From assembly GCA_021771915.1 (NCBI GenBank), contig JAETNY010000006.1:62001-126000 (forward strand): a stretch of 64,000 nt of DNA, read 5' to 3'. Below the pieces are notes generated by a model that was not told where the DNA came from, did not search any database, and saw only the letters and a list, made by a program, of their open reading frames with translations. The translations under genes and the position numbers were made by a program. Below are positions 52,750 through 55,578 of this stretch, piece by piece; the first letter of the stretch is position 1, and each line of letters begins with the position of its first letter. The DNA is from Bacillota bacterium. Its GTDB lineage: Bacteria; Bacillota; Dehalobacteriia; UBA4068; UBA4997.

Positions 52750-52878
52750 ATGACAAACAGTATTTTGGACAATCCCGCCATTTTGAATGGCAGTGACCTG
52801 GACAAGCTGGAACAGCTGCAAAATGAATTTTGTTCAGAGTGTGGCAAAAATGTAATTTTGGTGGCTTATAAGGGCTAA
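52750..52878 (+). CDS. 42-residue protein with a C-x-x-C motif
   Basis: A short plus-strand gene with AAAGGAG placed 7 bases before its ATG. The product is MTNSILDNPAILNGSDLDKL and then an acidic, amphipathic stretch ending in FCSECGKNVILVAYKG. The Cys-Ser-Glu-Cys pair could bind metal in a dimer or act as a redox or modification site. It is its own unit: a candidate promoter stands upstream and two hairpins, one a clear terminator, downstream. I do not recognise the family. It could be a regulator, a small zinc-ribbon protein, or a peptide precursor. Confidence 0.7.
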   Translation: MTNSILDNPAILNGSDLDKLEQLQNEFCSECGKNVILVAYKG

Positions 52879-52952: not shown

Positions 52953-52985
52953 AAAACGGCGTAACACCGGTTGCGCCGTTTTTCT
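52953..52985. terminator. Bidirectional Rho-independent terminator
   Basis: AAAACGGCG (52953-52961) pairs with CGCCGTTTT (52974-52982), followed by T-runs on both strands. It ends the small-protein transcript and the convergent peptidoglycan-binding cluster. Confidence 0.85.
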
Positions 52986-53001: not shown

Positions 53002-53556
53002 TTACTGGAGATTATTAATAATATTATCACTGTAAAAACGCAGCATAATGTTCCAGGTTCTGCGGTCTAAAACACCAGTGGCCGGCAGATTAGCCAGCTT
53101 TTGAAAACTGGCAATAGCGTCGGCGTTAACCTGCGGCTTGCAATGCGGCGTAACCTGCTCCAAATTATCAAAATCACCGGCCATATTGTTCAAAACCGCC
53201 TGCACCACGGAAAGAACCGCATCGCAGGACTTATCATCAGCCTGCCAAAGCACGGTTTCACCCGGCGTTAAAGCCAGATTAAGGCCGCCATTGCCAACGC
53301 GCAGCATTTCCAAATTATGGTAAACCATTACAATCATTTCCCAGGTGGCAAAATTTATCTGGCCGCTGACCGGCAAATTAAACTCTCGCTGAAAACCACG
53401 CACCGCGTTGGCAGTTTCCTCATTAAACTGGCCGTTTACACGCGGCGCTGGAATATTTTGATAAACCCGGCTGATACTGCGCAGGCTGTACTGCATACTT
53501 TCAATCGGCCGCAGCCACCTGGCCAGAGCGTTTTTATCACAATAAACGACATTCAT
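53002..53556 (-). CDS. Peptidoglycan-binding domain protein
   Basis: A 184-residue protein made of two PG_binding_1 repeats: one near residues 25-80 (VNGQFNEETANAVRGFQREF, LPVSGQINFATWEMI) and one near 125-180 (ADAIASFQKLANLPATGVLDRRTW). No signal peptide is visible, so if it acts at the wall or spore coat it is delivered without Sec or from the mother cell. The ATG at 53556 has AGGAGG upstream; the frame opens two codons earlier. It is the last of three linked genes. Confidence 0.85.
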   Translation of the reverse strand: MNVVYCDKNALARWLRPIESMQYSLRSISRVYQNIPAPRVNGQFNEETANAVRGFQREFNLPVSGQINFATWEMIVMVYHNLEMLRVGNGGLNLALTPGETVLWQADDKSCDAVLSVVQAVLNNMAGDFDNLEQVTPHCKPQVNADAIASFQKLANLPATGVLDRRTWNIMLRFYSDNIINNLQ

Positions 53557-53579
53557 CGGCAAACCTCCTTTATCTGCCT

Positions 53580-54992
53580 TTAATCACTCATACCCTCCAC
53601 CAGCGGATAACCGGGATATTGCGGCACATCTGGGTTTTGCCGGCGCAAAGTAGACTCATACACATCAAGCAGGGCATTCCATGTATCCCGACCAACCACG
53701 CCGTCGGCCGTCAGGCCAAAAAGTCGCTGAAAAACCAAAACCGAGTTATAAGTCTGCGGCCCAAAAATTCCCAGAACCTCCACCTTAGGCACGTCTGTAT
53801 AAACATCGCTGATAGCGTTCAAATAGCGTTGCAGCAGTTCCACGCGTTCGCCATTACTGCCCTGCCGCAGCAAGACCCCATCATAGGGCTCAAGCGGTAT
53901 GCGTGAAAGCAGCGAGGGCAAAATAAAAGTAATCCCTTGAAACTGGTCATAAATCAAATCCCAGGTTTCTTTATCAACGACGCCCGTCACAGGCAAGCCA
54001 TTATTGCGCTGCAAGGTTTCCACCGCATCCTGTGTAACCTCATCAAACACACCGGTTATCTGAACCTGAGGAAAAGAAGTGTTGAACAGAGCAATAACTG
54101 AAAGAAAATATTGCAACAGATCAATACCAACACCATCATAACCCAGAGAAAGTTCCGTAGGCAAAATCTGGGTGTAAGATGTATACTCCACGCCCTCCGT
54201 TTCCAACTCAGAAAGCCGCTTGACCACGCTGTAAATATAACTTAGCTGATACCAGGTGGCCTCATCAACAACGCCATTGGCCTCCAAACCAAAAATGCCC
54301 TGAAATTTGCGCACAGCCGCCACCGTAATCAAATTAAAATCTCCATTGGCCGGTGAGATTTTGGGTATAGTTGGATAATTAGCGGAAACGCGATTAAGCT
54401 GATATTGTACAATTAAAACATTATTGCTAAAATCGCCATAATCCAGCGGCGTTCCCGGATAAGATGGCGTATAACTCATCACCGGCGTATTCGGAACCAA
54501 CTCTATGTCCTCCCCATAATAATATTGCAAAATCTGAAAGCTGTTATAACCGGCATTGGCCAATTCCACCGTGCCCCATTGATGCATACCATCACAAACC
54601 GTCTGCCGGCCGTCACAATACGGCGCCGGAAAAGGGGCCACCTGACCAATCTGCCGAATATATGTTGTAAAAATTTCATCAACAATACGTGAGATTGTAT
54701 CAAAAATGCTGCGCTCATAAACAAAAGCATGGTCAAACTGTGTGGTGTTTGTAATATCAAAATCATAGCCCTGACTGCGATACCATTCAGTATAAATACG
54801 GTTCATGGTAAAAGAAATCTGAGCGTAAATGTTGGCGCGCAAAGCAGCCTCCGGCCAGGTGGGATAAACCTCACTGCTGGCCACATTTTTTATATAATCC
54901 AGAAAAGCAACTGTAACATTCCTGGCCGGCGCACTGGGATAACCCAAATGCACCACGATTGTTTCCGGAACATATGGAACGGTTAAAACCAT
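53580..54992 (-). CDS. SpoIID-like domain with three peptidoglycan-binding repeats
   Basis: A 470-residue protein. Residues about 25-170 resemble SpoIID/LytB, a lytic transglycosylase of spore engulfment: the acidic residue Glu41 in NVASSEVYPTWPEAALRANI, and the Cys-containing YCDGRQTVCDGMHQWGT (Cys126 and Cys133). Three PG_binding_1 repeats follow, near 185-250, 285-350 and 378-445, each with GVVD/GVVG-x-x-TW. There is no signal peptide or membrane segment, unlike classical SpoIID. It lies between the other two cluster genes with an AGGAGG-type site. A role in spore cortex or wall remodelling is inferred. Confidence 0.8.
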   Translation of the reverse strand: MVLTVPYVPETIVVHLGYPSAPARNVTVAFLDYIKNVASSEVYPTWPEAALRANIYAQISFTMNRIYTEWYRSQGYDFDITNTTQFDHAFVYERSIFDTISRIVDEIFTTYIRQIGQVAPFPAPYCDGRQTVCDGMHQWGTVELANAGYNSFQILQYYYGEDIELVPNTPVMSYTPSYPGTPLDYGDFSNNVLIVQYQLNRVSANYPTIPKISPANGDFNLITVAAVRKFQGIFGLEANGVVDEATWYQLSYIYSVVKRLSELETEGVEYTSYTQILPTELSLGYDGVGIDLLQYFLSVIALFNTSFPQVQITGVFDEVTQDAVETLQRNNGLPVTGVVDKETWDLIYDQFQGITFILPSLLSRIPLEPYDGVLLRQGSNGERVELLQRYLNAISDVYTDVPKVEVLGIFGPQTYNSVLVFQRLFGLTADGVVGRDTWNALLDVYESTLRRQNPDVPQYPGYPLVEGMSD

Positions 54993-55008
54993 ATCTGCTT
55001 GCCCTCCT

Positions 55009-55407
55009 TTAGCCGATGTAAACCGGAGTCTGCATATTCACCACCAAATCACTCAAAACACCCGGAAAAATCTGCACTGGCACCTTATCTCGTGTCAGAT
55101 AATTGGCCGCCACAATCCGGGCATAATAAACATTATACGGGCGCGGCTCCCCTGCCGGGTGCGGCTGCTGGGACTCGGCCAGCTGGGGCGCCGGCAGAGA
55201 TACCATCTCCGTTTCGCCGCTGGAATTAGTCTGCAAAACCGCCAACAATTCCTGCTGTCTTTCTTCAATACTGCCATAAATCATAATCTGTGCATTATAA
55301 ACCGGCAGGGCGCGTTGAGCCGCCGCCACGTTTATCTTCAAATAACCAAAAGAAGCGGTTGCAGCCGGGTTTTCCTGCTGCATATCTTCCTCTGTATATA
55401 CAACCAT
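55009..55407 (-). CDS. Conserved small beta-domain protein of the SpoIID/PG-binding cluster
   Basis: A 132-residue protein without signal peptide or membrane segment. A pattern of beta strands with Pro and Asn turns (GYLKINVAAAQRALPVYNA, LQTNSSGETEMVSLPAPQL, RPYNVYYARIVAANYL) resembles carboxypeptidase-regulatory-like or transthyretin-like domains, often used for binding. I do not recognise a named family. The ATG at 55407 has GGGAGG nine bases upstream; an ATG two codons earlier is too close to that site. It heads the three-gene cluster. Confidence 0.65.
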   Translation of the reverse strand: MVVYTEEDMQQENPAATASFGYLKINVAAAQRALPVYNAQIMIYGSIEERQQELLAVLQTNSSGETEMVSLPAPQLAESQQPHPAGEPRPYNVYYARIVAANYLTRDKVPVQIFPGVLSDLVVNMQTPVYIG

Positions 55408-55443
55408 AAGCATAAACCTCCCAATTAAGTTTCTGCTCTATCT

Positions 55444-55467
55444 ATATGCCAAATTTCGGCGGCATAT
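55444..55467. repeat. Inverted repeat upstream of the SpoIID/PG-binding cluster
   Basis: ATATGCC (55444-55450) and GGCATAT (55461-55467) form 7-bp arms with a 10-base centre, 37 bases before the first gene of the cluster. It may be an operator or a leader hairpin. Confidence 0.4.
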
Positions 55468-55480
55468 TATCTGAATACAC

Positions 55481-55510
55481 AAAAAAATGCCCAGGATACA
55501 CTCCTGGACA
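55481..55510 (-). terminator. Rho-independent terminator after ilvE
   Basis: GTCCAGGA (55502-55509 read on the minus strand) pairs with the copy at 55489-55496, with one G-T pair, and is followed on the minus strand by seven T. It isolates ilvE from the SpoIID cluster. Confidence 0.88.
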
Positions 55511-55578
55511 CTTTTATTTATCAGAACAATATTGAAAAATATTCAGATTTGAATGATTGCCAGACAAAACAGGTCTGA

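Follow-up and report, generated by a model that had tools for sequence, protein, structure and literature searches.

The cluster considered here occupies positions 53002-55407 of a 64,000-nucleotide stretch of DNA from a Bacillota bacterium, the whole of which is referred to below as the window, and consists of three co-directional genes on the minus strand, placed as an earlier note on this DNA had given them. Gene 1 (55009..55407) codes for a 132-residue protein with a transthyretin/CNA-B-like β-sandwich, gene 2 (53580..54992) for a 470-residue enzyme with three PG_binding_1 repeats, and gene 3 (53002..53556) for a 184-residue peptidoglycan-binding protein with two such repeats (PG_binding_1, 2.3e-18), the two-repeat neighbor recognized previously. 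Each is preceded by a good ribosome-binding site, the spacing of which favors ATG 55407 as the start of gene 1, as in the earlier note, over an alternative upstream ATG at 55413, and ATG 53556 as the start of gene 3 over TTG 53562, itself a possible start. The cluster is bounded on one side by a terminator-like hairpin (55483..55515, minus strand) 3' of the upstream aminotransferase gene, which parts that gene from the cluster, and on the other by a strong terminator-like hairpin (52953..52982, plus strand) that separates it from a convergent small gene. Within the genus dN/dS is 0.04-0.31 for gene 1 and 0.05-0.12 for gene 2, and it lies well below 1 for all three genes, gene 3 included; all three are thus under purifying selection. 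A 42-residue open frame, MTNSILDNPAILNGSDLDKLEQLQNEFCSECGKNVILVAYKG, runs convergently with the cluster at 52753-52878 (plus strand) and shows 58-88% identity among the genus relatives carrying the cluster; a family search with it gave no convincing match.

Comparison of the gene 2 product with all solved structures placed one entry far above the rest, namely 9h68 (E 3.7e-71, residues 2-263), the SleC of Clostridioides difficile as the precursor. SleC is the enzyme that many spore-formers use to dissolve the spore wall at germination. Residues 1-258 of the gene 2 model superpose on SleC residues 154-414 with 46% identity and a Z of 22.3, and the large rmsd of the two structures (13 Å) is probably due to a differing orientation of their domains. 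As the confidence of the model is moderate (mean pLDDT 70), the sequence match is the stronger evidence. The catalytic domain (residues 1-170; 54483..54992, minus strand) is matched by Pfam as a sub-threshold SpoIID domain (20 bits, residues 28-86), to which TIGR02669 adds residues 135-160. It is followed on the same strand by the three PG_binding_1 repeats (6.4e-42), whose approximate ends, taken from relatives, are 54225..54452 for repeat 1, which is aligned to 9h68 and common to ordinary SleC, 53937..54155 for repeat 2 and 53655..53873 for repeat 3 (best stretch 380-441). The fusion of a SpoIID-like domain to three binding repeats had been read correctly in the earlier note, as had the retention of the key Glu and two Cys: Glu41, Cys126 and Cys133 are invariant across 10 and across 18 aligned enzymes of the split type described below. 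An assignment of gene 2 as a paralogue of SpoIID was rejected, SleC being far closer in both sequence and model; C. difficile SpoIID is the second-best structure match of the model (Z 16.1), and the score against TIGR02870 is 23.7 bits against a cut-off of 234.75. Pfam searches found no Hydrolase_2 domain (PF07486) in the three cluster proteins. Gene 2 starts where SleC residue 154 would lie, with neither pre-domain nor propeptide, and its product is the mature form of SleC with extra wall-binding repeats, three versus one.

The missing N-terminal part is found next door. Pfam found no domain in gene 1; a phmmer search with its 134-residue frame matched the N-terminal part of 9h68 with an E of 1.1e-4, and a profile of 20 gene 1 relatives did so with an E of 5.4e-19. 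The best PDB match of its AlphaFold model (pLDDT 87) is likewise 9h68, over residues 0-120 (Z 13.9, rmsd 2.1), with unrelated sandwich domains scoring Z 11.7 and below. Gene 1 is SleC's own N-terminal pre-domain encoded as a separate protein, and genes 1 and 2 are SleC cut in two. The small β-domain protein noticed earlier is hence present, but it had not been seen as the SleC pre-domain, a piece of the same enzyme. Nor does the claim hold that the arrangement has no described function, given an enzyme of the SleC type beside the SleC pre-domain, SleC being known (PMC3789822). A fused, multi-repeat SleC2 has already been described; of the split form we found no description in the open-licence literature.

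According to the models gene 1 ends at the equivalent of SleC residue 120, whereas gene 2 opens only at residue 154; nothing corresponding to residues 121-153 is encoded in either of them or anywhere else in the cluster. In C. difficile the pre-domain is removed during sporulation by YabG, which cuts after R119 (PMC6464247), and the propeptide is removed at germination by CspB (PMC3567191), from which we infer that the whole propeptide would fall within residues 121-153. The C. perfringens pre-peptide is, going by the title of a report from 2000 (Okamura, cited in PMC3738446), needed to produce the enzyme from its precursor.

A scan of GTDB genomes recovered at least 574 relatives, of which the best 80 come mostly from uncultured Oscillospiraceae, Ruminococcus and other gut Clostridia; a near-identical locus carries the label uncultured Peptococcaceae, and many of the carriers of the split form are metagenome assemblies, although a culturable gut commensal, Ructibacterium gallinarum, also has it. 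Among these best 80 loci none has the fused form, and the pre-domain gene lies directly upstream in 78, the remaining two being cut by contig ends. The two frames overlap in 35 of the 78 and are separated by gaps of at most 31 bases in 43. A frame error splitting a single gene was rejected on account of the conservation of the split in 78 of the 80 loci. Downstream, a counterpart of gene 3 is present in 61 of the 80, and this, with the selection acting on it, led us to reject gene 3 as random debris. When 195 genomes of the class Clostridia were sampled, 35 gave a match, and the enzymes sort into three classes: fused SleC with one repeat (the ordinary form), fused SleC with two to five repeats, and the split form. 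In a tree of 60 catalytic domains a branch with support of 95/93 sets all 40 split enzymes apart, and they adjoin the fused multi-repeat forms and not ordinary SleC. The simplest reading would be a single fission of a multi-repeat ancestor, its direction being presumed, as the tree is unrooted. Split enzymes with two to five wall-binding repeats were also observed (L224/L287 in G133, L225 in G120, L226 in G148 and L230 in G170).

Several lines of evidence tie the cluster to sporulation, a link that the earlier note had suggested looking for in sporulating and non-sporulating relatives. By gene content the window's genome is that of a spore-former, with spoIVA and a single GerA-type receptor gene. 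Of 61 relatives, 15 carry the cluster, a part of it or a fused relative, and every one of these has spoIVA; no SleC-type gene occurs in the three that lack spoIVA (G004, G021 and G056). Two members of the window's genus, G003 and G004, are without the cluster; G003 keeps spoIVA and GerA, and the region near its spoIVA (L077, contig C17:12000-31000) contains phage-like genes and a protein with a weak Hydrolase_2 match. Sigma-K directs the transcription of ordinary C. difficile sleC in the mother cell (PMC3789822). Upstream of gene 1 lies GGCATATAGATA (55439..55450, minus strand), kept in the genus, which we regard as a candidate sigma-E/K-type -10 element of a putative promoter. Five of the six genus members read have the motif GCATATA(A/G)ATA ahead of the pre-domain gene, and GCATA occurs in 34 of 72 upstream regions of other carriers as against 15.1 expected; the resemblance of the longer motif to a sigma-E/K -10 box is suggestive only.

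No signal peptide or anchor was detected in the three proteins, as claimed earlier: their N-terminal 19-residue windows reach hydropathy values of at most 0.80, 1.01 and 0.03, versus 1.89 and 2.27 in two exported-looking SpoIID-family proteins of the same genome. A hidden export signal in a corrected start was looked for and rejected, as the frames of genes 1-3 remain open for only 8, 15 and 7 codons further upstream, leaving no room for one. Origin in the mother cell and delivery to the spore without a Sec signal was probably called right. Eight ordinary SleC proteins that we examined also start with the β-domain and show no clear signal peptide; therefore it is not the delivery of the split enzyme that is the puzzle, but its activation.

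The proteases that activate ordinary SleC are missing here. In the window's genome, which is 98.55% complete, we found no S8 peptidase (subtilase) of any kind, no YabG, no Hydrolase_2 enzyme (SleB/CwlJ) and no remaining ordinary SleC. Across the sampled genomes Csp was marked by a split S8 match, which arises because of its jellyroll insert; one protein bearing this mark matches the CspB structure 4i0w (E 3e-164). By this mark ordinary SleC is accompanied by Csp in 11 of 13 genomes, whereas none of the 33 genomes having the split form alone has it (Fisher p 6e-9). G227, which has ordinary and split SleC together with Csp, was counted among the ordinary SleC genomes, and subtilase matches without a retrieved locus were judged solely by the paired-match pattern. 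The other 43 split-SleC genomes scanned gave no Csp either. Subtilases of split-SleC genomes were considered as potential Csps and rejected: among the scored loci only that of G162, which has ordinary SleC, matches the Csp profile, and it does so through the jellyroll insert. Within one family of the window's order G028 has a fused SleC and Csp, and its split-form family members (G014, G018, G020, G024, G025 and G029) have no subtilase at all. YabG was found in 7 of the 13 ordinary SleC genomes, and no split-form genome tested had it; it is also absent from sampled SleC-free relatives in the window's order. Because of this last point, and because the split arose once, the Csp and YabG contrasts are associations and not proof of functional coupling.

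G283 and G032, which have ordinary SleC, show no clear Csp, and this tells against the reading proposed below; G283, a 1.5-Mb genome, combines ordinary and fused multi-repeat SleC (L278:1502-2842, L277:1001-3247) with YabG, and its only subtilase matches other subtilases and not CspB. In G236 and G298 a Csp protease and SleC share one open frame (L279:821-4063, 1080 residues, and L281:598-3798, 1066 residues, respectively), so that the protease and its own substrate form one polypeptide; in the former, residues 124-582 match CspB (E 3e-164) and residues 664-1046 match SleC (E 8e-121).

Based on these observations the cluster encodes a split SleC, which we consider likely to dissolve the cortex during germination without activation by Csp. 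Transcription would take place in the mother cell at a late stage of sporulation, and the enzyme and the pre-domain would be independent products of neighboring genes that often overlap. The pre-domain would then act as a separate partner, likely helping the enzyme to fold or to reach the spore, and the five wall-binding repeats may hold enzyme and partner at the cortex, where at germination the enzyme is predicted to cut the glycan strands as a lytic transglycosylase. As there is neither Csp nor propeptide, it would have to be restrained by something other than propeptide cleavage: either the bound pre-domain protein could hold it back, or the cortex could be inaccessible or not susceptible until the GerA receptor triggers the release of ions and dipicolinate. 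In vitro, cortex fragments can serve as a substrate for full-length C. difficile SleC (PMC4619724), and cleavage is therefore not the only possible brake. More tentatively, we suggest that a large group of gut spore-formers may germinate by means of a SleC that works without proteolytic activation and has a separate pre-domain partner, with dissociation, hydration or cortex access governing its release.

Within the proposal of a Csp-independent split SleC, the pre-domain protein could be a true inhibitor, the two proteins forming a two-piece zymogen from which it leaves, or in which it is destroyed, at germination. The pre-domain gene stands beside the enzyme gene in every one of the 78 loci with upstream DNA and is itself under selection, and in ordinary SleC the domain is at first covalently attached, all of which would suit such a role; however, C. 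difficile pro-SleC stays inactive after YabG has removed the pre-domain (PMC6464247), and the pre-domain is therefore not the main inhibitor in that organism, which leaves us doubtful of this version. It is unlikely, we believe, that the cluster instead encodes a sporulation-time enzyme similar to SleC2, which would trim the cortex or primordial wall or aid lysis of the mother cell while another enzyme opens the cortex. The adjacency of split and fused multi-repeat enzymes in the tree would be consistent with such a function, as would the finding that C. botulinum group II has fused SleC2a and SleC2b alongside ordinary SleC and CspB (PMC5083711) and that fused multi-repeat and ordinary SleC are likewise paired in G162, G264 and G283. 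Against it, the window's genome has neither SleB/CwlJ nor ordinary SleC for the germination job, and in the window's order a strong Hydrolase_2 match occurs in 0 of 15 genomes with SleC-type genes versus 14 of 20 others. A near exclusion of SleC and Hydrolase_2 as a general rule was rejected, as it fails in other Clostridia; beyond the window's order Hydrolase_2 enzymes accompany split SleC in many genomes, and split SleC therefore need not be the only cortex enzyme there. Finally, a decayed sleC with genes 1 and 3 as debris, to which the correspondence of the cluster to pieces of a longer known gene might point, is refuted by the ribosome-binding sites and selection noted above and by the fission itself, which a single clade with at least 40 sampled enzymes and nearly all of the best loci have in common.

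To our knowledge the control of SleC is understood only in pathogens, and only as YabG and Csp proteases cleaving a single chain. In the split SleC, carried by hundreds of gut bacteria that are mostly uncultured, pre-domain and enzyme are already parted at the level of the genes, no propeptide is left and neither protease is present. The split form leads one to expect a germination switch independent of Csp, and it offers a natural test of the purpose of the SleC pre-domain and propeptide. It would also assign a role to proteins for which general family models offer no label beyond peptidoglycan-binding.

Among known systems, the role expected of split SleC is that of SleB/CwlJ, which differ in having a Hydrolase_2 catalytic domain, one that the window's genome does not have; SleB also carries a PG_binding_1-type domain. 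SpoIID, the lytic transglycosylase of forespore engulfment, shares the catalytic fold, the key Glu and the Cys residues with gene 2; unlike gene 2 it is exported and does not have these repeats, and the window's genome encodes other proteins of the SpoIID family, whose N-terminal part includes a hydrophobic stretch. With the SleC of C. difficile and C. perfringens the cluster has in common the catalytic domain, the first wall-binding repeat, the fold of the pre-domain, the lack of a signal peptide and the tie to sporulation. It differs from SleC in having the pre-domain on its own gene, in the absence of the propeptide region, in its three repeats and extra two-repeat protein, and in residing in a genome without Csp and YabG. 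SleC2a and SleC2b of C. botulinum group II are single chains of 698-792 residues with 4-5 repeats (PMC5083711), and we equate the fused multi-repeat class with SleC2 by architecture and length, not by sequence comparison. Unlike them, the split form keeps its pre-domain apart and is usually not accompanied by ordinary SleC; here too, however, a SpoIID/LytB-type domain is followed by several peptidoglycan-binding repeats, and the nearest relatives of the split form in the tree are the fused multi-repeat enzymes.
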